The notes under the pieces are model-generated. The model did no database searches. It saw nothing but the letters and a program-made list of their open reading frames with translations, and was not told the DNA's origin. Made by a program: the position numbers and the translations under genes. Of a stretch of DNA of 64,000 bases, positions 1,483 to 31,437 are shown in pieces. The stretch's first letter is position 1. Each line of letters begins with the position of its first letter. Origin of the DNA: Erodium maritimum (taxonomy: Eukaryota; Streptophyta; Magnoliopsida; Geraniales; Geraniaceae); NCBI GenBank assembly GCA_963921825.1, contig OY997593.1, positions 49,398,039 to 49,462,038 of the forward strand, written 5' to 3'.

Positions 1483-1791
1483 ATAGACGATGTCGTTCAC
1501 CAGCTACACCTTCTCTTTCGATTTCCTGAGTCGTCAATTTCATGTAACCACTAAGTATAATAACTTAACAGACTTTAAAAACAAACTCAAAGACAATCTC
1601 GCCATTTACAAAAAAAAAAAAAAGATCAGCTACCGGTTTGTTGTTTTTGAAAGTTAAATGTAACTTTTAGAAATCCGCGTATAGTGTGTAACTACTTTAT
1701 ATTATCCTATTTATTTTTACTTGAAAAGATTTGAATATAATCAACTTGACTTATTATTAATATGATTTTATTTACAAAAAACTTATAGTAA

Positions 1792-2647
1792 GGGTTAATT
1801 ACAATTACATACGCTTAATTTGACATGATTATCTGATATATACCCTCATGTTTTTTTTTAAAAAAACTGATGCATTCCCTCATGTTCCAACGTTAGTTTA
1901 TTTTAATTGTATAAAATAAATCATTATTTTTAATATAAAAAAATATTTTTTAATTTTAAATAATCATTTTTTGAAATTCAGTTTGTATTTAAAAGTTAAT
2001 TATTATTGAAAAAAAATCAAATTTTAATTAAAAATAATTTTATTTTATTTTTAATAAAAATCAGTTTTATCTAAAAATAATATTTTTTGTTTAGAAATAT
2101 TTTATTTATATAAAATTTGTCTTTTAAAATAAATTTTGGGTTTTTTAAAATAAAAACTAAGTTTTATATAATTTTAAATATTATAATATGATTAATATTT
2201 TTTTATAAATAAAACCATATTTTATAATAAAATTTGGATATTCAAAATAAAAGAAATTATTATTAGTAAATAATTATTTTATAAAATAAAATAATATATT
2301 TAAAATAAAATTTGAATTTTTTAAAATAATATTTTATTTTTATAAATAAAACTGTAATTTTAAAATAAAAAAATCAAATTGATTTTTTATAAATAAAAAA
2401 CCGATTTTTCCAAAATAATTATTTTAATAATTCAGATGTTCAAAAATATAATTTAATAATTCTTATTTTCGTAATTAAGGGTGGTTTGGGCATTTCTGAA
2501 AAAGTGAACATTAATATGGATGGAAATTTGGACGGAAGAGGCATATCGTTAAATGTGAAAACATGCGGGTATGCATCATTTAAAAAAAAGATGAGAGTAT
2601 GTATCAGATAATAGTGACCAGTTAAGGTATGTAATTGTAATTAACCC
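1792..2647. mobile_element. MITE with ~90-bp terminal inverted repeats
   Basis: The left end GGGTTAATTACAATTACATA reappears inverted at the right end (2627-2647). The match continues about 90 bp inward through ATTATCTGATA, ATACCCTCATG and TGATGCAT blocks. The roughly 850-bp interior is very AT-rich and non-coding. The end sequence and length suit a non-autonomous Mutator-like element. I found no clean 9-bp duplication, so the superfamily is uncertain. Confidence 0.7.
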
Positions 2648-4170
2648 AAAAAAACACACTAAAACGTACAAAAATTGATTATACTCGATACTATTTTAAA
2701 AAACTAAAAAAATACATTCTAAAACCGAGTCTATACCTTAGGAGTAAGGCGTTGATGTCTCACGACTTCACATTACTCAAACTTACCAAACAAATTGGGA
2801 AGCTGTATCATTCCTAATCTCACTCTCAAATACTGTCACACTGATTTCAATTTATTTTCAAATTCGAGAGTAAAAAAGAACGAAAGAAAATACAGAGCTG
2901 CTGTCAATAATAAGGGTGGTCGTCTGACATAGCTCACGACCAAGGTTGTGGTCACGCTTGAAAATAAGCTATATAATGCCTGTTTTGTTAAGGTTTAATT
3001 ATATTGACCTACCCCGAACTATGTATATTTAACGGATAAATACCCCCAAAAAAAAAAAATTCGTAACGAAACATACTCCGAACTATCCATTTGCAACAAC
3101 ATCCAAAATTCCATCCATTTTTTTCTTCTGAAATTCTGAAACTGACCGTAGTGTTCCAACCTTAAAACCAACTCCAATCCTAAATCTATCTTTATTTTTA
3201 TATACTTTTTAATCAAATTGAATTATGTTTTAATTAATCATAATTATTAAAAAATAAAATATTATAATATTTTTTTTGAAAAATTATAATTATAATTTTT
3301 AATGATATTAATAATTTTAATTTTTACTAATTTTCATTATATTTTTTAATCATTAATCTTTATTTTTAAATTCAATAGTTGTTTTAGTTTTCAGTAATCA
3401 ACATTTTTATTACTGCTTTTTAAGATATTAATCGTATGAGGAGAAATCAAATAGAAAGCACCTCTTAACGTAGGAACCGTGAGAACCCATCCAAGCCATC
3501 CATTTTAAGAACGGATGGATGAGATGCAGTTGAGTTGTTGACTTGTTGACTACAAAACACATCACTTTTTAGTAAGTGGTAGGGACGTTTTAGTAAAACT
3601 ATCATATTACTTTTTTGTACCAATTCACTAATTTAATGTTTCCCGATTCGTTTGAACTCTGATTGGCTTCAAACTTGCGCCAATAATTTTGTTTTTTCAA
3701 AAGAATTTCTATCAAGATCAGTCACGAATATATTTTGAAACACGATTTTTTTTATTTTGGGGCTGATTTATAAAAAAAAATTATATCTGGGTAATATTTA
3801 TCAACACTTTACACTTGTTTTATCAACACTGGACACTAGGTTTATCACCTCATTTTTCAAAACTAAACATGATTTAATTTTTCCCGCTTCGTTTGAACTC
3901 TGATTGGCTTCAAACTTGCGCCAATATCTTTGTTTTTTCAAGGGCTTTCTATCAAGATCAGTGGTGAATATGTTTTAAAGTAAGAAAAAATAAATTATTT
4001 CGGGGATGATTTAAAAAGAAATTATGTCTGGGTAATTTTTATCAACACTTCACACTGGTGTTATCAACACTTTACTCTGGTTTTATCAACACTAAACACT
4101 AGTTTTATCACCTCATTTTCCAAAACCGAACATGATTTTTATCACCACATCATATGTTTTTTTATGACCA

Positions 4171-4199
4171 CTAGGTGTGAGCACCGCGCGATGCGCGGT
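4171..4199 (-). other. candidate Helitron 3' terminus (hairpin + CTAG)
   Basis: On the minus strand a perfect 7-bp stem (ACCGCGC, 3-base loop, GCGCGGT; 4199-4183) is followed 8 bases later by CTAG (4174-4171) and then T. That is the known Helitron 3' rule: a GC-rich hairpin shortly before CTRR, with insertion before T. It sits in strongly AT-rich DNA. If real, the element extends to higher coordinates. I could not find a 5' TC end, so this stays a candidate. Confidence 0.4.
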
Positions 4200-4891
4200 A
4201 TATTATTAGATAAATTATACGTTTTTCTATAGGTCAATCCAGGCTCAAATAATTGAGCAAAATCGAACCTAAACAACAATACATGAAAGTAAGTGAAATA
4301 AAATATCGGAGAGTTTAAAATGTAGTGCATTTTAATTTTTTGTACCACGGTCTAACAATCACAACATGCCAATTGACGGTAAAGATAAAATCGATAACTG
4401 AATGTACGTTCAACAATCATATTACAATAGTACTACTTTAAGTTGTTGTCGACACTATTGGATAAACTCATAAAACTTAAGGCACCCTCAAGTTTGTAGT
4501 AACCATACAACTATACTGACTGGAGCGACATAATTTACTATTGCTCTTCTGTCATGACTCATGAGACAACTTATTTTAACACTGATGATGAAAACCGCCC
4601 ACATTTTATCCAGATTAAACACTTGAAATAAAAGTATTGATATTCCATTATGTGTCAAAACAAATATGTAAACCATCTAGTTCTTAACAATCAACAAAGG
4701 TTATTATTTGTTAGTAAGCATAATTATAGTCTAATCAATAAATATTACAAATTGCAAAAATCGAGAAGCATAATCACAATCTAATCATTAACTACTACAA
4801 ATTGCAAGATAGTGTGAAAAAAAACTCGGTTTTAATTCAATCGGAGATGAATAGCAAGCATTGCTAACACTCATGCATACAAGTGGCATAC
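4200..4891. other. AT-rich non-coding stretch
   Basis: No gene-like frame, tRNA or clear repeat is recognised here. It may be the body of the candidate Helitron whose end lies at 4171-4199. The stretch ends at CATAC, the target site of the solo LTR that follows. Confidence 0.5.
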
Positions 4892-7800
4892 TGTCACGCC
4901 CCAATTTCAGTAGACCGAACTCGGGACGCGAACGTTTAAAATAAGAAAACACTTTGAAACCATTTCCATTAAAACACCTTACAATAACAGTTTAGTTCAA
5001 CAAAAGGATAATTACAACTCAAAATAAAACGTCCCACAAGCGGACAAAAAGGCGAGGTGTCCGTCGCTAGACTAAAAAGACAAAACCCGGACTCCGCTCC
5101 TAGCTCCACAAGCTTCGAGAGCTCACCTAGTCCGTCCCACGAACAGTACCTGTAGGAAAAGCAACTAGGGGTGAGCGTTCGCTCACCACCACGGATAACA
5201 GACTGACTACGGCATAATTAGCAGACAATGCCGTTAACACCAACAACAAACTCAACCCCGGGGATCACTGTCCCCAACCCAAGTACTCTGACTGACAAAC
5301 ACCCACGGTGACCTTCCTCGAATGACTCGCCACTCAAACACGTAAGTAGACACGACACAACGATCACGACCTCTTCCAAGGACTCAAGGAACTACGCAAC
5401 ACCAAACAAGATCACAAGGATCGCACACCAAATAAGATCACAAAGGATCGCAAACCAGCTGCTCAGTAACATCCCTCGCTCATGCGCTTTGCTGAACCAC
5501 TCAGGCCAGGCGGTTGACCTGTCTCACTAACCTCTCTCACTCGTGCGCTTTGCCGAACCACTCAGGCCAGGCGGTCGACCTGTCTCACTCACGCACTTTG
5601 CCGAACCACTCAGGCCAGGCGGTCGACCTGTCTCACTCACCTCTCTCACTCACGCACTTTGCCGAACCACTCAGGCCAGGCTGTCGACCTGTCTCACTCA
5701 CGCACTTTGCCGAACCACTCAGGCCAGGCTGTCGACCTGTCTCACTCACCTCTCTCACTCAGGCAACCACAATCACAGTCACAAACACCAACACAAACAC
5801 AAGCAAGTTCGACGACACAGGCACTCAAGGCCACTCAAGACACCTCAACAATCAAGACTCGGGTCCAACAACCCCACGGGCACTCACTGCCACTCAAGAC
5901 ACACCAACGATCAAGACTCGGGTTCAACAACCCCACGGCACGCACGGTCACCCCAAAACACCGAAACGACAACACGGGCTCTCATGGCCACCCAAGACTC
6001 AGCAATAAATAACACGGGCTCTCAAGGCCACCCAAACACCAAATTAAATAACACGGCTCTCATGGCCACCCAAACTCGATAATAAATAACGCACAACAAC
6101 CTCCGGCATAATCGATGCCTCCAACAGTCCTAAGATCACTAGTTTCACAAACAACCTCCGGGCATGATCATATGCCTCCAGTACTCCTAATATCAACAAG
6201 TTCACAAACAACCTCCGGGCATGGTCATATGCCTCCAGTAAATCAATTATCGCTAAGTTCTCTGTTCCTACGACACTACTAAGTGTCACATGCTTTTCTC
6301 TTAAACGCTACAATCCTGTACCATGCATTTCTAATAATTACTACAATCCCGTAACATGCTTTTCTAATAATCGATAACCTAGATAACCCACGACACCCCG
6401 GTGTCACATGCAATTCTACTATTAACTTTCCCTAGTCAGGGCCGAGATCCGGCTACTTTTCCCTACCTCAACTGAAGAGCACCCGTTACGCTTCCTAGCT
6501 GCAGACGTTCTGGCTCGCTACCTCCGGGCTTCACTTCGATCGAAGCCGAACTCTAAAGATAACACGAAAGTCATAAATTAAAGACGGTTCCACCGTTAAG
6601 TTAAAGATTACGATTTGTCCAGTTTAAATCCGACATTTGTCCTTTGAACTTGAGGGGGATAAAAGCGGGGTCACAGCGAATCGGGTTTGAGTACCCGAGC
6701 ACCGAAACCGGTGCATGCGAGGCACGGTCCCAACGCACGAATCCCGAGGTCCGATTCAGCGGTCCGCTCTTGTTCCTTTTTAAACCCGAAAAGTAGTCCA
6801 TTTTACCCAGAGTTCCAGAGTCGTTCCCAAAACCGATTAATAACCCTTTTTCACAACAGAACGGTTTTTATTTTAAAACGAATTCCCTTTTTATTTCAAA
6901 TCTGATTCTATTCCGATCTTTGAGCCCAAAATGAATTAGGTTCGGTTTTTGAACAACCGTCCCTAAATCCCGTTTACGACTTAGATTCACAACTCCTCGA
7001 TTTAAACCGTTTTTAAAACCGAAACGCTTTTAAATTCCTTTTCATTTTAAAACCTTATTCCTTAAGTTTGATTTTCCGTTTTACAACCTTTTCTTTCCAA
7101 AACTGTGATTTCGATTTCAACCGAAGCAGGTCCAAAATCCATCTTTTACTCCAATCTGATTTAATTGTTTCCCTTTTCGATTCAAAAACCGTTCCAAATA
7201 TTAATCAATTCCATTAGCAGGTTTAATCAAATATTAATCGATTTCATTAACGATTTAACCAAATATTAAACGATTTCATTAACAATTTTAACCCTAAACA
7301 GATCCAAACTAAATCGAAAAAGGTTTTATTTCATTTTCTTTGTTTGTTACAACAAAACCCGATTTACAGTAGTTCGAAGACGGGAAATAATAGAGGTTCG
7401 GTTTCGAACCGGTCGACCGCCGGCGAGGGCGGCGTCGGCCGGGGCCTAACCGTAGAGAAGGGACGGCAAGGGCGGCGGCTGGCTCGGGACGAAGGCGGGA
7501 CGAGCTCGGGCTTGGTCGTGTCCCAGGCGAGCTTGTCTCGCCGGAGATCTGGAGAGGGAGGTCGGGTGGTGGCCGGATCTGGACGGAGGCGAGCGTGAGG
7601 GGCGGAGTAGGGCGGCGGCTCGGTGGTGGCGCGGTGAGGACGGCGTGGAGTCGAGAGGGACGGTGGTGGCCGAGCTCGGTGGGTTCGGCTGAGACGGGAA
7701 GGAGAGAGGCAAGGGAGGTGGAGGGACGCGGTGAGGGAGTGGCCGGAGGTGGAGGGAGGTCGGGACGACGGCGTGGTCGTGGGGAGGGGGTTTCGAACCA

Positions 7801-9509: not shown

Positions 9510-12099
9510 TTAGAGCCAAGAAGTGAGATTTTTAGTAATTATAGAACGTCACGTCAGCTGCCATGTCAACTGTTAACTTTGCTATTATATATTATAAGAT
9601 TAAGAACTAGATTTATCAACATAAAACACTATGTTTATCACCAAATTACATGTGTTTTATCACCTCATCACATGTTTTTTTATCAACACTAAACTCTAGT
9701 TTATCACACTTATTATCAAAATTGAACACGTTTTTTATCACCTCAGTACATGTTTTTTTTATATCAACATTTAGCACTAGTTTGATACCCCGATATAAAA
9801 CATTTATTAGTGAAAAGTTATCAACACTCAACATTATTTTTATCACTCCGATATAAATTTTTATTTTCGTGCTTCAAAATATATTCATGACTGATCTTTA
9901 TTTAAAGCCCTTGGAAAAAGAAAAATATTGGTGCAAGTTTGAAGCTAATCGGAGTTGAAACGAAGCAAGAATGATTAAGTTAGTGAATTGTTGAAGAAAA
10001 AAATGGACACTTGTCCACATGGCACCATGTTATTACAAATATCCTCTTGCTTGTGTGAGAAATGATGAAAGTGGCGTGTATGTTAGGTGTAATTGGGGTG
10101 ATGATGTGGCGTCTTGGTGAATGTTGGATCATATGTGTGGGTGGATAAGATGGGTTCTCATGGTTACCAGGATAAGAGAAGTTTCTAGCCTATTTCTCCT
10201 CCTAATCATATAATACTTGTAATAACCACTTCCGGTCAACGCTAGTCAAACCTGCGAAAAACAGGAAAATTTAAAAATTTTGAGCAGACACTGAATTGAA
10301 CTGGAATTGGACCCCGAGGGTCATACCGGACTTAAGTTGACCCCGATATCGACCAAAGTGAGTTCCAGGGGACTCAGGGCAACTTTCTGATCAATTTGGG
10401 AAATGTTGACTTTTCGCTGGAAAAGTCAACCGAGCGAAGTTTTGGTCCATTCGAGGACCGTTTTGGATCCAAAAAGCTTATCCGTCGTCGCAGCGGTCTT
10501 AGTTGAGCCGTTTCCTTGTAGCCCGCCAAGTTTCATAATTTTTGGGAAAAAGTGCCCGTTCGGGGCCCGAAACGTCCGATTTCCGTGAATCTGATTGGAA
10601 AATATCTAGTAGATATTTTTCAAAAGGTGTGGGACCCACCTTGCCACTTGTCCAACAAGTGGTGGTGTTAGTTTGGGGGGGAAAATGAGTGGTGGTGCCT
10701 TAAGTGTGGCCGACCACATATCAAAAAAAAAGGAAAAAAAGAAAATGAGTTAGTTGTTTTAGAAAGAGAAAGAAGAGAGAAGAAAGGGAGAGAAGGAGAA
10801 GAAGAAAAGAGAGGAGCTAGGGCTTGGAGGGTCATTATTCACGTCTTCAACCTTTGGATCGTCTCAACGTTCCAAGAATCGGGCTCCCCTCGTCTTCCTC
10901 TACGGTATACACCAAACCGATCTTCGATTTGTCAATTTCTAAATTTAGGTTTTGGTTTGAAACTATTAGTTTAAGGTTGTTTTGATGTTGGGAGAGTGTT
11001 GGAGACGTTTTGGAGGTGTTTGGAGGGGAAATTTGACGTTTTCCGGTGACCGGAAGCTCGGGAGGAGCTCCGGCCACCGTGGGTGGTGGCCGGCCGGCCA
11101 TGGGGTGGCTGGCCGGCCATGGGGTGGCTGGCCGGAGCTGGGACCAGCCACCACCATGGTGGCCGGGCCCCAATTTGAACCCTAGGGCCCACGGCCAAGT
11201 TGGGCCGGGTGGGGCCCATGTGCTCTGGTGCTCGGGTTTAGTGTTCGGGTGGTTTAGAACGTTCCCCGAACCATTTATCCACAACCGAATCGAAAATTGG
11301 AATTAAAATGCGAAAGTTGTAATTATCGGGTTTAGAAACTTTAAACGTCATTTAATTGACTCGGAAGTCGGAATTCGATTCCGTCAAGTGCATTGGGACC
11401 CGTGAATTATTCTAAGACCGTAGAAACGAAAACGGGAATTTTTGGAGCCCCGGAAGGGCATTTCCAAAACCCGGGCAGATTCGCCATGTCGGGCGAATCG
11501 GGCCTTTATGGGTCCAATATCGACAATGTCGAGTATTTGGGGAGTTTGGGAGTGATCGACATTGTCGGGGTTACTTTTGGGCGTCAGGTTTATTAAAATT
11601 CAGCATTATGCCTGCAAGCTTAAAAGCGTTTAAAATTGTGTTCTTTTAGATCGTGCTGCAGACCGAGGGAAAGGAAAGCTAGGCGAGTGACTGAGATCAC
11701 GCCAGAGCTTGTTGGTTGGCTTTTGGAGAACACGCACGAGGTAGGGAAAAGTAGCCGGATCTCGGCCCTGACTAGGGAAAGTTAACAGTAGAAATGCATG
11801 TGAAACTTGGGTGTCGTGGGTTAAGTAGGTTATCGAATATTAGAAATGCATGTGACATTTGGGTGTCGTGGGTTAAGTAGGTTATCGAAGGTTGGAAATG
11901 CATGTGACACTTAGTAGTGTCGTAGGAGTAGAGAACTTAGCGTTGTTAGAATTACTGGAGGCATATGACCATGCCCGGAGGTTGATTGCGAACTTATCGA
12001 GATTAGGAGAACTGGAGGCATATGACCATGCCCGGAGGTTGATTGTGAAACTGTTGATATTAGGACTGTTGGAGGCATTGGTTATGCCGGAGGTTGATT

Positions 12100-12503
12100 G
12101 TGTATTTGGTGTCTTGGGTGGCCATGAGAGCCCGTATTTTACTGTTGTGTCTTGGGTGGCCATAAGAGCCCGTATTTTACTGTTGTGTGTCTTGGGTGGC
12201 CATGAGAGCCCGTATTTTACTGTTGTGTCTTGGGTGGCCATGAGAGCCCATACTTTACTGTCGTGTCTTGGGAGGCCGTGAGTGCCTGTGGGGTTGTTGA
12301 ACCCGTGTCTTTACTGTTGGTATGTCTTGGGAGGCCGTGAGTGCCTGTGGGGTTGTTGAGCCCGTGAGTTACTGTTGGTGTGTCTTGGGAGGCCGTGAGT
12401 TCCCGTGGGGTTATTGAGCCCGTGAGTTACCGTTGGTGTGTCTTGGGAGGCCGTGAGTGCATGTGGGGTTGTTGAGCCCGTGAGTTACCGTTGGTGTGTC
12501 TTG
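12100..12503 (+). repeat. 58-bp tandem array, left part
   Basis: Units read GTTGGTGTGTCTTGGGAGGC, then CGTGAGTGCCCGTGGGG, then TTGTTGAGCCCGTGAGTTAC, with a clean 58-bp period in the last few copies. Earlier units (CTTGGGTGGCCATGAGAGCC) are more diverged. The array is interrupted at 12504 by the gag-only element and resumes at 15872-16090. It belongs to the LTR and is not a CRISPR array, because the units are contiguous with no unique spacers. Confidence 0.8.
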
Positions 12504-13169
12504 TGTCACGGGACCACAAGACCTCTCTTTGATCCGTGCGGCTCACAACCCTACACAAGCCTTTTCCTAGGCTTTGTAAGCGATGTGATCAGCCTTCAAA
12601 CGTGCGGAAGCGTTTTGATAAGTGAGCAAACGAAAGAGCAACAAAAAGAAAGGTAGAAGACAAGAGATTGGTGCTCAAGAGGGAGCGATTTTCTGGTTTT
12701 ATATATGAACAAAACAAAGAGAAAAGTGAGTGAGTTTAGAAGGAAAATCAGCCCTCTATATATACTAGTACAAGAGATCTATATAAGGCAACAAGAATAA
12801 ATGAGATTCCTCTTTAATGCCATGGTCTCCTCTTGGTCAAAGACTATCCCTTGATCCTTGCCAAGTCTTGTAACTCCCATTGACCCTTGATCCTTGCCTC
12901 TTGTCCCCGCCATCAAGATGGGCGCCAATCATGGCCATGTCAAGGCTGGTCGCCCCTTGACCATGCCAACCGATCAGCACCCCTTCTCGGCCTGAACCAT
13001 CCTCGCCCAGGTCTCGGCCCAGCTCGCCCTCGCCCACGTCTCGGCCCGGCTCTCCCTCGCCCATGTCTCGGCCTGACTCTCCCTCTCGGCAACCAAATGG
13101 GACCGAGCCCACCTCGTCCCTAAGTGCACGGCACCAGCCCAAGTCCGGGTCTTCATCTGGTCCGTGACA
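12504..13169 (-). repeat. left LTR of the gag-only element, inverted
   Basis: Reads TGTCACGGGACCACAAGACC at its left end and TGGTCCGTGACA at its right end. Its first 200 bases match the reverse complement of the last 200 bases of 15030-15871: shared GATCCGTGCGGCTC, TTTTCCTAG-CTTTGTAAG and TTGGTGCTCAAGAGGGAGCG. Its right end matches, inverted, the start of the other LTR: shared GGCATGGTCAAGGG, CCTTGACATGGCC and AATTTGGTGGCC-like blocks. Confidence 0.8.
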
Positions 13170-13220
13170 TCAAGTGGTATCAGAGCTCCGGTTCAAGAAC
13201 AAGTTAAGGTCGAACAAAAG

Positions 13221-15521
13221 ATGGTTATGGAGGTGGAAGCTAGCGGTCGTGATGTGTACCAAGTGAACACCAAAAAGCTAAGTAAGTCCCGTGAACAATC
13301 TTCTCATTTTATTGATTTTTCTTTCGAGGAAAAACTTTCTCTTTTGAAGGGTGTTGTGGAAGGGAGGATTGGGTTCACGGAGTCCAACAAGCACATCTTG
13401 CTTGGAGGACGAAGTGGACAGCGTTTGGAGGAGAAACAAGAAGGCTTTCGTGGGGATAGGCCTAGGAGTGGCATGGGGCCATCCGAGAGAGGTTATCCCA
13501 AAAGGAAGTGCTATCATTGTGACAGACCTCACTCGCGGAGAGATTGCCCAACCTTGAAGCCTAAGGAGGTCGTGCCGGGAACGCAAGAGGCAACTTTGAA
13601 AGTGGGGAAGCTTTCAAAGGGTGTAGCGCAGGAAGGACGACCAAGGAGAGATGTTCCGGTGGAGAAACCAGCAAAACCGGGTAATTCTAGTCTCCTACCA
13701 TTGAGGTGTTTCATTTGCGATGGCTGTCACTTGATGCGTGAATGTACGAGGAGAGATGTTCCGGTCGAGATGCCATCTTTGTCATGTTTAGTTTGCAGAG
13801 GCTCACATTCGATGTTTAATTGCCCGAACAAGCCTAACTTGAGATGTAGAGCTTGGGAGGACGCGCCGGAAACGCAAGAGGCAACTTGGAATGCGGGGAT
13901 GCTTCCAAAGGTTGTAGCGCAGGATGGGCGACCAAAGGGGGTAGATTCCATGGATGTGGAGACCGAAGCAAACGAAGTCCAGATGGAGACCTTTGAGGAA
14001 GAGGGTGCTTCGGACTTGGACATGGACTTTGAGGCAACCGAGGAGGTGGGTCTCAAAGAGCTCAATGGGCGTTCAACCATGGTGATGGTGAACGAAGTGG
14101 CAACCCAAGTGGAGGGGAAGCCATGTGAAATCCCGACCGAGGGAAAGGTCACAAGAGGTAATGTAATGCAAGTTGATTCAAGCTTTGATTATGATTCCTC
14201 TTCTTCTACCTTTCTTGGAGATGCACGGGATAATGGGGAAACGGTGGAAGTTCCTACCTTGGTGGGGGAGCTTTTGGACGAGTCCAAAGACATGTCGTCT
14301 TGTGGGCTGCCCAAGAAGCTACCACCAAGGCTTGACAAGGATGATGTCAAGGATCTTTTACCGGTGGAACCTTCGAATGATCAAGCAAGGAACCTTTGTG
14401 GGGACTTGTTGGGACCATTGGAGGTGACGACACTTGTAGCCAACGATGGTGGGGCAAAAACCAGATTGGATGTGACCAAGAGGAAGGTCATCCAAAAGGT
14501 AAAGTCGCGCACCATGAGGGTCAAGTGGTTGAGGGTGTTGAGGAGGGACGACAACTTCTCAACGAATGTGCACAAGAAGAAGAGTCGTGTGTTGTTGGGT
14601 CTCTATCATAGGCATTACGCGAAGGTAGATCCTTTGGGTCGGGCCAAGCTATTGGGTGCTATGATAGAGGGTCGCAACTTACATGGGCCTTCTTTAGAGC
14701 ACGATCTTGAAGGGCGTCGAGTTGTACAAGAAGAGGCGAAAGGGTGGCATGATGAAGATGGCATCCATAGTTCGTACTTCGTTGGGACAACAAAGGGGCG
14801 AATTCAAGAGAACCATGGAGGTAAAGTGCTTGAGTCAATTAATTCATATTTTGATTCTAAGCATTGTTCTTCTTCTACATTTCTTGGGGTCACCATGGGC
14901 GACAAAGGGGTGAAGAAGAAAGGGGGAACTTCCATGTTGGGAGACAACCACAAAGCGAAGAAGGGCAACCGAGCATGGAGCAAGGGGAACCCGAGCATCG
15001 GGGCGATGCTTCATTTTGGTGGGGGAGGATGTCACGGACCAAAAATCAGCATGGTCCTTGACACGTGCATGGCGTATGATGGGGCCGAGAGGAGCTTGGA
15101 CCATGGCATATGCATGGCACGTATGGGCAGCGAGATGGACTCGGTCCTTGATATGGGCATGGCACATGGGGGCAGCGAGCTTAGCATGTGCATGACATGT
15201 GACGGAGGCAAGGTGGACTCGGCCCAATTTGGTGGCCAAGAGGAAGAGCAAGGCCAAGGAATGGGTACGCAACAAGGTTGGCATGGTCAAGGGCCGAGAA
15301 GCCTTGACATGGCCAACTTGGACGTTTGGCATGGTCAAAGAAGACTTGACATGGCCAAGTGGGACGCATGCCATGTTGGCGGGGACGTGTGGCACGAATC
15401 AAGGAGGAAGACGCCATGTGGGCGCCACATGGGCGTGGGGACAAAAAGGAGGAGAATAAGGGATTGGAGATCAAGACTTATTCACTTGCCTTTGAATTTG
15501 AATTTGAATTCAAATTCGTAA
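13221..15521 (+). CDS. gag-like protein with three zinc knuckles
   Basis: The open frame runs from 13164; the first ATG is at 13221, because the upstream codons overlap the primer site. Numbering from 13164, three cysteine-histidine knuckles lie at residues 116-128 (CYHCDRPHSRRDC), 182-194 (CFICDGCHLMREC) and 208-220 (CLVCRGSHSMFNC). All have spacing C-X2-C-X3-H-X4-C, one residue shorter than the usual retroviral C-X2-C-X4-H-X4-C. A module with QEAT, a GKL/GML motif, VAQ and GRP occurs twice (about 141-160 and 239-258). The middle is acidic, the C-terminal half basic. The last 490 bases of the frame lie in the right LTR, so the natural end is uncertain. A nucleic-acid-binding gag role is inferred from the knuckles and position. 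No protease or polymerase domain is present. Confidence 0.6.
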   Translation: MVMEVEASGRDVYQVNTKKLSKSREQSSHFIDFSFEEKLSLLKGVVEGRIGFTESNKHILLGGRSGQRLEEKQEGFRGDRPRSGMGPSERGYPKRKCYHCDRPHSRRDCPTLKPKEVVPGTQEATLKVGKLSKGVAQEGRPRRDVPVEKPAKPGNSSLLPLRCFICDGCHLMRECTRRDVPVEMPSLSCLVCRGSHSMFNCPNKPNLRCRAWEDAPETQEATWNAGMLPKVVAQDGRPKGVDSMDVETEANEVQMETFEEEGASDLDMDFEATEEVGLKELNGRSTMVMVNEVATQVEGKPCEIPTEGKVTRGNVMQVDSSFDYDSSSSTFLGDARDNGETVEVPTLVGELLDESKDMSSCGLPKKLPPRLDKDDVKDLLPVEPSNDQARNLCGDLLGPLEVTTLVANDGGAKTRLDVTKRKVIQKVKSRTMRVKWLRVLRRDDNFSTNVHKKKSRVLLGLYHRHYAKVDPLGRAKLLGAMIEGRNLHGPSLEHDLEGRRVVQEEAKGWHDEDGIHSSYFVGTTKGRIQENHGGKVLESINSYFDSKHCSSSTFLGVTMGDKGVKKKGGTSMLGDNHKAKKGNRAWSKGNPSIGAMLHFGGGGCHGPKISMVLDTCMAYDGAERSLDHGICMARMGSEMDSVLDMGMAHGGSELSMCMTCDGGKVDSAQFGGQEEEQGQGMGTQQGWHGQGPRSLDMANLDVWHGQRRLDMAKWDACHVGGDVWHESRRKTPCGRHMGVGTKRRRIRDWRSRLIHLPLNLNLNSNS

Positions 15522-15871
15522 TCAAAGCTGATTTGAAATCAAATCAAATCTTCTTTGATTCTCCTTGATTGTTGTAGATAGTTGCCATACATAGCTCACT
15601 TGTAACTAGTATAAATAAGAGGCTTATGAGCCATTGTAAATCACTTACACCTTTTGTACTTTCACTCATAATACAATCAGAAAATCGCTCCCTCTTGAGC
15701 ACCAATCTTCTTGTCTTCTACCTTTCTTTTGTTGCTTGTTCGTGGCTCATTCCCTAAGACGCTTCTGCAACGTTGAAGGCTGATCGCTTTGGCTTACAAA
15801 GTCTAGGAAAAGACTTGTGTAAGGAGGCGAGCCGCACGGATCCAAGAGGGTGGTCTTGTGGTCCCGTGACA
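15030..15871 (+). repeat. right LTR of the gag-only element
   Basis: Begins TGTCACGGACCAAAAATCAG directly after a purine-rich tract and ends TTGTGGTCCCGTGACA. A TATAAAT-like box at about 15610 and an AATACAATC stretch at about 15670 could be its promoter and polyadenylation region, by position only. It is 842 bp, against 666 bp for the inverted left copy. Confidence 0.75.
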
Positions 15872-16090
15872 GGGAGGCCGTGAGTGCCCGTTGGGTTGTT
15901 GAGCCCGTGAGTTACTGTTGGTGTGTCTTGGGAGGCCGTGAGTGCCCGTGGGGTTGTTGAGCCCGTGAGTTACCGTTGGTGTGTCTTGGGAGGCCATGAG
16001 TGCCCGTGGGGTGGTTAAGTCTGTGTTTTACTGTTGGTGTCTTGGGTGGCCATGAGTGCATGTGGAGTGTTGAACCCGTGTTGTTGCTCT
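15872..16090 (+). repeat. 58-bp tandem array, right part
   Basis: The 58-bp array interrupted at 12503 continues here for about four units, starting GGGAGGCCGTGAGTGCCCG. Joining the two flanks gives the array consensus with one extra G, so the interrupting element left no 5-bp duplication. Confidence 0.8.
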
Positions 16091-16164
16091 TTGTTGAACT
16101 TTTCTTGTGATTGTGATTGTGTTTGCCCGAGGTTAGTAACCCGACTTCGTGTCGGGGAGTGGTG

Positions 16165-16320
16165 TGGAATTCAGCAGGTTACGAGCATTCTTTGGCTGGC
16201 CTGATCCGTGCTCGAGTCTCGACAGGTTACGAGCATTCTTTGGCTGGCCTGATCCGGTTCGAGTCTCGGCAGGTTGTGAGCATTATTTGGCTAGCCTGAT
16301 CCGTGTTCGCGTGATTGAGG
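16165..16320 (+). repeat. three ~55-bp repeats within the LTR
   Basis: Three near-identical copies of CAGGTTACGAGCATTCTTTG followed by GCTGGCCTGATCCG. They lie near the 3' end of the family A LTR. The opposite-strand family A copy has its own tandem array at the corresponding place (5480-5760). Confidence 0.7.
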
Positions 16321-16960
16321 GAGGTTACTGAGCAGCTGGTATGCGATCCTTTGTGATCTTGTTTGGTGTGCGATCCTTTGTGATCTTGGGTGTTGCGTGG
16401 TGGTCTTTTGAGTCCTTGGAAGAGGTCGTGATCGTTGTGTCGGGCCTACCTTACGAGTCCGAGTGTTGAGTCGGTCGAGGAAAGTATCAGTGTGTGGGTG
16501 TCAGTCGGGTTACTTGAGTTTGGGGACAGTGATCCCCGGTATTGAGTTGGTTGTTGGTGTTACCGGCATTGTCTGCTAAGTATGCCGTAGTCAGTCTGTT
16601 ATCCGTGGTGGTGAGCGAACGCTCACCCTAGCTGCTTTTCCTACAGGTACCGGTCGTAGGTTGGACTAGGTGAGCTTCTGAAGCTTGAAGAGCTAGGAGT
16701 GGGATTCTGGGTTTATTTGAGTCTAGCGACGAATACCATACTTTTGTCCACTTGTTGGGACGTGTTTTAAGTTGTAAATATTATTTTGTTGAACAAATGG
16801 TGATTTTTAAAGTGTTTTAATGAAAAAGGGTTCAAATTGTTTTATTGTTTTAAAGGTTCACGTCTTGAGTTCGGTTTACTGAAATTGGGGCGTGACAATA
16901 CTAAAATTGAAAAGTAAAAAACTTTATCTAAACAAAAATTAAACAGAACCCACGTGTATC

Positions 16961-28399: not shown

Positions 28400-31300
28400 T
28401 TAAGAACCGCTCCCGGTCAACACCAGTCAAATCAGCGAAAAACAGGAAAATTTAAAATTTTGGGACAGACACCTAAATGAACCTAAATTTGACCCCGAGG
28501 GTCATATCGGACTTAATTTGACCCCGATATCGACCAAAGTGAGTTCTGGGGGACTCAGGGCAACTTTTTGACCAATTTGGGAAATGTTGACTTTTTGCTG
28601 GAAAAGTCAACCGAGCGACGTTTTGGTCCGTTCGAGGACCGTTTTGGATCCAAAAATATTAGTCGTCGTTACAGCGGTCTTAGTTGGGCCGTTTCCTTGT
28701 AGCACGTGAAATTTCGTAATTTCTTGGAAAATGGACCCGTTCGAGGCCCGAGACAGCCGAATTTCACGAATCTGACAAAAAAATATCTACAAAGATATTT
28801 TGTAAAGAGGTGGGACCCACTTGCCACTTGTCACACAAGTGGTGGTGGTTGGTATTTTGAACAAAACAAAAAGGAAATGAGTGGTAGTTTGTAAATAAGT
28901 AGTATTTGGTGTTTTTAAAACAAAATAAAAGGATTGGTTGAGAGTGGTCTCGGCAAAAACAGAAAAAAGAAGAGAAATAGAGAGAGAAAGAAGAGAGAGA
29001 AGGGGAAGGATAGAAATAAGGGAAAATCTTGGGTTTTTGGAGATTGCCAACGATCCGAACGACCGATCGGTCGACTCAACGACTGCGGATTCGAACTCCC
29101 CTCGTCATTCCCTACGATGAGAACCCGTCTTTTTCTCGTTTTGGAACGTTTGAATTTTAGGGTTTGAGTTTAAATGGGTTGATTAAGGTTGGGTTTTGTT
29201 TAAGTTTGGTTTAAAGATGAATGGTTGAGGTTTGAGGTTCGTTAGGAACGTTTTGGGGCGAAAAGGAAATTTCCCCATTGTGGCCGTGTGGGACCCACTT
29301 GGACGGGCCTCGGGTTTTTCGTGTTCGGGTGGTTTTGGACGATCCCCGAATCGATAATTCACACCCAGAACGAATTATGGGATTAAATCGTGGAAATTGG
29401 AAATTTCGGGTTTAGAAACTTTAAACGCGAATTAAATCGCTCGGAAGTCGGAAATTGATTCCGTCGATTGCGTTGGAACACTTGAATTATTTTAGGATCG
29501 TAGAAACGAAAACGGGAATTTTCGGAGCCCCGGAAGGGCGTTTTCCGATCTCGGGCATATTCGCCGAGCCGGGCGAATCGGGCCCTTCCGGACCCTTTGT
29601 TGACAATGTCGAGTAATCGGAAAGTTTGGGAGTGATCGGCATTTTCGGGGTTGCGTTTGAGCGTTAAGTTCATTAAATTCGGGTTTCACCTGCTTATTTA
29701 AAAAGTGTGTTAATTTGTGATCTTGTTAGATCGTGTCGCCGACCGCGGAAAGAGGAGGCTAAGCGGGTGACTGCGAGCATGCCGGAGCTTGAGCGTGGAT
29801 ATTTGGAAAGCGTTACGAAGTAGGGAAAAGTAGCCGGATCTCGTCCTTGACTAGGGAAAGTTAACAGTAGAAATGCATGTGACACCTAGTGGTGTCGTAG
29901 GATGAGTAAGTTTATCGAACACTAGAAATGCAGGCGACACTTAGTGGTGTCGTATGATAGGTGAACGTATCGAACAATATAAATGCATGTGACACTTAGT
30001 AGTGTCGTAGGATAAGTGAACTTATCGAACAATGGAAATACTGGTGGCATTTGATTGTGCCCGGAGGTTGATTGAATTGTTTGTGTTTGTGGGTGGCCAT
30101 GAGTGCCTGTGGGGAGTTGAACCCGTAGAGTACTGTTTGTGTGTCGTGGGTGGTCAGGTGTGCCTTTGGGGAGTTGAACCCGTATTTTACTGGTTGTGTG
30201 TCATGGGTGGCCATATGTGCCTTTGGGGTGTTGAACCCGTATTTTACTGTTTGTGTGTCATGGGTGGCCATGTGTGCCTGTGGGGTGTTGAACCCGTATT
30301 TTTACTGTTTGTGTGTCGTGGGTGGCCGTGTGTGCCTGTGGGGTGTTGAAATCGTATGTTTCTGTTTGTGTGTCGTGGGTGGCCATGTGTACCTATGGGG
30401 TGTTGAACCCGTATGTTATTGTTTGTGTTTGTGGGTGGCCGTGAGTGCCCGTGGAGAGTTGAACCCGTATTGGTTGACTGACTTGCCGAGGGGTAGTTAG
30501 TTGTGTTGTCGTCTTTTCTTTCTAGTTGCGGGGTATTGCGTGTTATTTGGTTGTGACTGTGATTGCATGGAGGTTGGGGGCCCGCCTGACAATAAAGGGG
30601 TCCCGTGGTCGCGCGCGTGGGGGTTGGCTAGCCTTCCGACTAACCATCGGTAAAGTTGTGCATTCTTCTGCGATAAAGGGGTCATGTGGTCGCGCGCGTG
30701 GGGGTTGGCTAGCCTTCCGACTAACCATCGGTAAAGTTGTGCATTTCTTCGGCGATGAAGGGCGGCTCCCCTTCCGACTAGATATCGGAAAAGTATCGTT
30801 GAATATATCGCTAACCGGTCGACCGCCTGGCCCGACTGCATTCGAGGAAAGTTGCGTGGGACAGGCTCAAGCCCAGCCGGTTAGCAACCGGCACTGAGTA
30901 GCTGGAGTGCGATCCTTTGTGATCTTGATTGTTGTGTGCGATCCTTTTTGATCTTGGGTGTTGTGTGGTTTTCTTTTGTGTCTTTGGTGGGGGTCGTAAC
31001 CGCTGTGTCGGGTCTACATTACGCGTCCGGGTTTGAGTTGGATGGGGAAAGTAACAGTTTTCGTGTGACAGTCGGGTTACTTGAGTTTGGGGATAGTAGT
31101 CCCCGGTGTTTGGTCTGTTGTTGGTGTTTCCGGCATTTTCTGCTAGTATGTCGTAGTCAGTCTGGTATCCATGGTGGTGAGCGTTCGCTCACCCCTAGCT
31201 GCTTTTCCTACAGGTACTGGTCGCGAGACGGACTAGGGGAACTCTCGAAGCTTGAAGAGCTGGGAGTGGGAGTCCGGGTTTTTGGGAGTTTAGCGACGTA

Positions 31301-31437
31301 CGCTTTTTTTTGTTCGCTTGTTTTGGACGTGTACTCAAAGTGGTAATTTTAAGCGGTTTATTAAAATGTTTGAAAACTGTTTTATTGTTTCACCGTTCGC
31401 GTTCCGGGTTCGTTTCTACCGAATTCGGGGCGTGACA
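28400..31437 (+). mobile_element. solo LTR, family A, nested in family B LTR
   Basis: Starts TTAAGAACCGCTCCCGGTCA, close to the family A start at 10218, and ends CGAATTCGGGGCGTGACA. It is flanked by GAGCC at 28395-28399 and 31438-31442, an exact duplication. Length is 3038 bp, with no internal region. It carries the family A tandem array at about 30090-30480 (seven or so units of 57-60 bp with GTGTGTCATGGGTGGCC) and a duplicated block with CGCGCGTGGGGGTTGGCTAG (about 30610 and 30690). Confidence 0.87.
30090..30480 (+). repeat. 57-60-bp tandem array in the nested family A LTR
   Basis: About seven units share TACTGTTTGTGTGTC, GGGTGGCCATGTGTGCC and TGTGGGGTGTTGAACCCG. The array is homologous to the 58-bp array at 12100-12503, which confirms the family assignment. 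Units differ by several bases each. Confidence 0.75.

Follow-up and report, generated by a model that had tools for sequence, protein, structure and literature searches.

A probable chimera of two sister LTR retrotransposon families, with LTRs facing opposite ways, at a satellite hotspot of Erodium maritimum

Introduction

A short retroelement in the genome of Erodium maritimum has a primer binding site (PBS) and a polypurine tract at the edges of its two long terminal repeats (LTRs), as LTR elements do, and yet these repeats face opposite ways. Is this a family that moves with inverted LTRs, an element whose left LTR was flipped, or the product of two copies that recombined? All three readings had been put forward in the original prediction, made from a stretch of 64,000 nucleotides (contig OY997593.1, positions 49,398,039 to 49,462,038 of the forward strand) that is called the window here; coordinates given without a contig or locus refer to it, and the element itself is called the window copy.

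Structure of the window copy

The two repeats had been correctly delimited, the left one at 12504-13169 (first bases TGTCACGGGACC, last bases GGTCCGTGACA) and the right one at 15030-15871 (first bases TGTCACGGACC, last bases GGTCCCGTGACA), and their inverted arrangement is real. In a self-blastn of 12004-16400 they are similar solely as reverse complements, with minus-strand matches of 300 columns at 81% identity (E value of 6e-60) and 40 columns at 92.5%, and a repeat scan of the copy gave six inverted pairs. The left repeat had been said to match the right one along its length; the reverse-complement similarity stands, but only ca. 290 bp on the U5 side plus one 40-bp block can be aligned by blastn, and a forced global alignment gives 69% identity over 582 columns.

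The PBS, TGGTATCAGAGC (13175-13186, plus strand), presumably of the initiator-methionine tRNA type, adjoins the left repeat, and the polypurine tract, GGTGGGGGAGGA (15018-15029, plus strand), stands directly before the right LTR, both as described originally. In other copies, the U5 end of an LTR adjoins the PBS and the U3 start adjoins the purine tract, so it is the left repeat that lies backwards, with its U5 end at 12504 and its U3 start at 13169. A normal LTR-PBS joint reads CCCGTGACA followed by AGTGG. Here there are three extra bases, TCA (13170-13172), that are missing from other PBS sites; after the left tip GGTCCGTGACA comes TC and then AAGTGG, the U5/PBS edge of the family that we call A below. 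This TC is the complement of the GA lying between the purine tract and U3.

Both flanks consist of a 58-bp satellite detected by TRF (12263-12503 and 15872-16080, plus strand). The left flank ends in CTTG (12500-12503), and the right flank begins with GGGAGG, without the CTT of the CTTGGGAGG found in the satellite unit, i.e., a target-site duplication is missing. The satellite belongs to a longer repeat unit that occurs three times in the window (4892-6470 on the minus strand, 10220-16765, and 28401-31332), once inverted.

Family identity of the two LTRs

Sequence comparison points to two sister families, A and B. In an identity matrix with 11 other A-type LTR sequences, the right LTR scored 97 to 98% against ten of them and 95% against the remaining one, from C2. 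The left LTR had 68 to 70% identity to the 12 A-type sequences, the right LTR of the window included (579 to 582 columns), vs 84 to 89% to five of the six B-type LTRs and 80% to the sixth (B_C9c), which is aberrant. As a genome query, the right LTR gave full-length matches at 93 to 98% (48 match rows from the best 40 of 644 candidates), and the left LTR gave five other full-length matches at 92 to 93%, the rest being lower or partial (45 rows from the best 40 of 637 candidates); since the best 40 candidates were scored, diverged relatives could escape these searches. The best matches of the internal region (13170-15029, plus strand) were at 92 to 94% over its positions 2-1774, with many more partial rows at 79 to 96%. 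The right LTR, in normal orientation on the plus strand, and the internal region thus belong to one non-autonomous family, A, and the left repeat is an LTR of family B in minus orientation. The window copy therefore consists of B LTR (minus), A internal region, and A LTR. The proposal that the element flipped its own 5' LTR is not supported, because the LTRs are from different families (the left one reaches 93% identity to B copies). The idea that two copies recombined is supported and can be sharpened to copies of two different families.

Direct LTR pairs were 99.2 to 100% identical in five A elements (L015, L018, L019, L023, and L024; L numbers designate genome loci) and 97.9 to 99.1% in four B elements (L039, L045, L046, and L047), with 89.1% in another (L040). 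Nine of these ten pairs fall within 97.9 to 100%, and the two LTRs of the window copy are far lower (69%, 582 columns). PBS and purine tract at the LTR edges are present in family A, and direct-LTR B elements with their own PBS and polypurine tract, the latter identical to that of the window copy, were found at L039, L042, L045, L046, L047, and L049. At L040 (C6:63187500-63196000, positions 1887-6531), the CCTG duplication is intact and yet the LTRs, both B-type, are just 89.1% identical.

Tandem A elements with common LTRs and a period of ca. 2.87 kb were found at C5:45955805-45965282 and C1:68526059-68535513. At L017 (3820-5556) and L018 (3622-5358), two A LTRs are just 53 bp apart, with one CATG duplication around both, and the 53-bp spacer contains the end of the internal region. 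A 12-kb copy at C5:30.40-30.41 Mb was considered as an autonomous partner and rejected; it is an A element with a nested insertion on the minus strand, copia-like from the reading of its frames.

Coding capacity

The internal region falls within an open frame of 785 amino acids (13164-15521), in which we recognized three CCHC-like boxes by eye. No Pfam domain of any kind was detected in this frame at E values up to 10, and no capsid domain in either of the two family-A frames searched (window and L015); the sole Pfam match of the L015 frame was eIF3g, at an E value of 7.9. The B frame of L045 contains Retrotrans_gag (4.8e-13) and an aspartyl protease (4.9e-11), and no pol domain was found in it. 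The window frame aligns with this gag-protease frame at 39% identity over 414 columns, downstream of the B capsid, and further alignment places a GASDL stretch of the window frame opposite the DTGASDL of the B protease. Family A, we infer, derives from a gag-protease element and has lost the capsid. The label "gag-only," given originally to the element, is a loose one; the frame has the three CCHC-like boxes but no Pfam gag domain, and a capsid domain is detectable in B but not in A.

LTR-PBS junctions across the genome

The inverted LTR/PBS junction has one exact occurrence in the 763-Mb genome, the window copy, and allowing 0 to 30 bases between the tip and the PBS still recovers this one only, vs 267 occurrences of one exact form of the direct junction. 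The patterns tolerated zero mismatches, so these counts are lower bounds and diverged relatives could escape; among the first direct junctions in contig order, all but one were at 67 to 70 Mb of contig C1 and hence are not independent. A direct LTR end precedes the PBS (CCCGTGACA, then AG, then TGGTATCAGAGC) in 15 of 15 sites of L003 to L016 besides the window's own (L009), some of the 15 being one place seen in overlapping loci. The same holds for all six PBS sites of the B loci and for the single one of L049, i.e., 22 out of 22, and the TCA is missing in each of these sets (15/15, 6/6, and 1/1).

Target sites and the satellite hotspot

Both families integrate with 4-bp duplications, mostly of the form C-N-N-G. 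In a first set, a duplication was found in 10 of 23 boundary rows (CATG, CTTG, CAAG, and CCTG), two CATG rows with identical flanks being probably one duplicated segment; the other 13 comprise two with a single flank, one with a truncated 3' LTR (C2), and ten with one boundary placed at a polypurine tract, a PBS, or an internal LTR edge. In a second set, there were duplications in 9 of 11 rows: CGTG (twice, with identical flanks), TTTG, CCTG, CATG, CAAG, CTTG, CATA, and CAAG, of which TTTG and CATA are the exceptions to the C-N-N-G form. The remaining two rows are L046, one base off (CTTA/CTTG), and L044, which has one flank only.

The CTTG site of the 58-bp satellite that surrounds the window copy serves A and B alike as a target. 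Searched in one orientation, GTGTCTTG stands directly before an LTR end in reverse at 10 places, the window included, one of them with a variant base. Right-hand ends followed by GGGAGGCCGTGAG were found at five places, with the full CTTG in three, the CTT missing in the window, and A in place of CTT on C9 (L043/L049). An A element with a truncated 3' LTR occupies the same satellite site at L026 (C2:41120000-41127500). At position 8389 of L049 (C9:23990500-23999000), the right joint of a B element with direct LTRs, the 5' one interrupted by ca. 2.5 kb of other sequence, reads CCCGTGACA-AG-GGAGG, without a full duplication, and resembles what the joining of an unprocessed U5 end would leave. 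Since this element has direct LTRs, a faulty joint on the right is not confined to the window copy. Insertions also occur close together. At L045 (C8:44289500-44298000, positions 1675-6422), a B element (plus) and a solo B LTR (minus), with CAAG and CTTG duplications, lie in opposite orientation 62 bp apart, which is one 58-bp unit plus 4, and outside the satellite, at L017, a B LTR (plus) ends 35 bp from an A element (minus). This site preference, mostly for C-N-N-G and with recurrent hits at one position of the 58-bp satellite, may in the long run matter more than the flipped LTR.

Origin of the window copy

The window copy has the PBS, internal region, and 3' LTR of a non-autonomous family-A element, with an inverted family-B LTR replacing the 5' LTR. 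Very probably it is a single chimera, in which an A and a B element were joined at the satellite hotspot. Joining after integration is more likely than before, and deletion between neighboring insertions has about an even chance of being the actual route. On this view, B inserted on the minus strand and A on the plus strand, a few satellite units apart, and a deletion, helped by the 8-base CCGTGACA that both LTR tips contain, then brought the U3 tip of the former against the U5/PBS edge of the latter, taking out the 5' LTR of A and the intervening sequence. Having no proper 5' LTR, the product would not be expected to regain direct LTRs through the normal reverse-transcription cycle. We favor this route because of the prior provided by plant complexes (PMC1950507) and because the hotspot is able to give neighbors in opposite orientation. 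However, a plain microhomology deletion should leave CCGTGACA followed by AGTGG, and three extra bases (TCA) are found instead; the right flank, moreover, has no CTT, as an expected duplication would require. No intermediate was found; the pairs at L045 and L017 are tail-to-tail rather than head-to-head as required. Because of the additional bases and the almost exact edges, a joining before integration is a serious though less probable alternative. In that case, an A cDNA with a single LTR and an end at the PBS would have been ligated to a B LTR cDNA, at a U3 end where two bases had stayed unprocessed, and the product, now flanked by U5 ends, would have been inserted at CTTG with a faulty right joint. 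Both breakpoints are 1 to 3 bases from the would-be natural cDNA ends of A and B, as these follow from the reverse-transcription cycle, the TC past the B tip is the complement of the GA between purine tract and U3, and the missing CTT and the similar joint of L049 at the same site fit too. But the TC amounts to two bases, which a chromosomal full-length B element yields as well, L049 has its right-flank defect without an inverted LTR, and the terminal branches (0.026 for the left LTR and 0.015 for the right) lean weakly to two ages, a lean that subfamily sampling confounds. That the cDNAs came from two co-packaged sister families and were joined end to end in opposite polarity before the faulty insertion at the satellite target is a tentative proposal, slightly more doubtful still; if true, the copy would preserve an intermediate of reverse transcription as a fossil.

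An in-place flip through the short inverted tips (TGTCACGG/CCGTGACA), which are indeed present, would now need a starting element with unlike LTRs, B-type on the 5' side and A-type on the 3' side. Unlike LTRs do occur, as L040 illustrates (89.1% between intact CCTG duplications), though both of its LTRs are B-type, and in the loci inspected no A element had a 5' LTR of type B. A flip would keep the target duplication, whereas the window copy has no right CTT and has gained TCA; with two rare steps required, we consider it unlikely. A mobile family, DIRS-like or other, that spreads with inverted LTRs would account for the general layout, in which a gag-derived frame is enclosed by inverted terminal repeats, but is highly improbable. 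Just one copy was found, the 22 other PBS sites all come after direct LTR ends, the terminal repeats derive from two families, PBS and polypurine tract are canonical, and the frame has zero Pfam domains. The possibility of such a family, raised in the original prediction, is thus contradicted by the single inverted junction against 267 direct ones of one exact form, and a false lead is removed. The chimera reading suggests how preference for one position of a satellite may bring sister non-autonomous families near enough for fusion.

Comparison with known systems

Family A has the direct LTRs of non-autonomous LTR retrotransposons, and the window copy is the exception. TR-GAG elements are short non-autonomous LTR elements with a PBS, a polypurine tract, and a gag-derived frame, and encode a gag protein. 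The elements described here resemble them in being short LTR elements with a PBS, a polypurine tract, and a gag-derived frame, and the B frame searched (L045), in which no pol domain was found, codes for Retrotrans_gag plus aspartyl protease. Unlike TR-GAG, family A shows no detectable capsid domain in either frame searched (window and L015), and neither frame encodes a recognizable gag protein; in the window copy, a direct 5' LTR is missing as well. DIRS-1 encodes a tyrosine recombinase, contains an internal complementary region, and in full-length form has inverted LTRs (PMC5633606). The window copy shares with it a coding region between inverted LTRs. However, no recombinase domain was detected in its internal frame, and the inverted LTRs occur in one copy rather than in independent ones; membership in DIRS was rejected.

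Complex LTR retrotransposon insertions of plants offer a close parallel. In Sabot and Schulman (2007; PMC1950507), the vast majority is ascribed to recombination between adjacent independent insertions and few to template switching, with 20 recombinant complexes and 2 template-switching ones in the table. The words "inverted" and "opposite orientation" have 0 occurrences in its main text. As in those recombinant complexes, two elements are fused into one structure, the parts come from two different elements, and there is no matching flanking duplication, a weak mark here since the parents share a target site and L049 has the same defect. The complexes described there have three LTRs, one of them common, whereas the window copy has two unlike LTRs facing opposite ways. 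It is an unusual variant of a recombinant complex and not a new kind of element.
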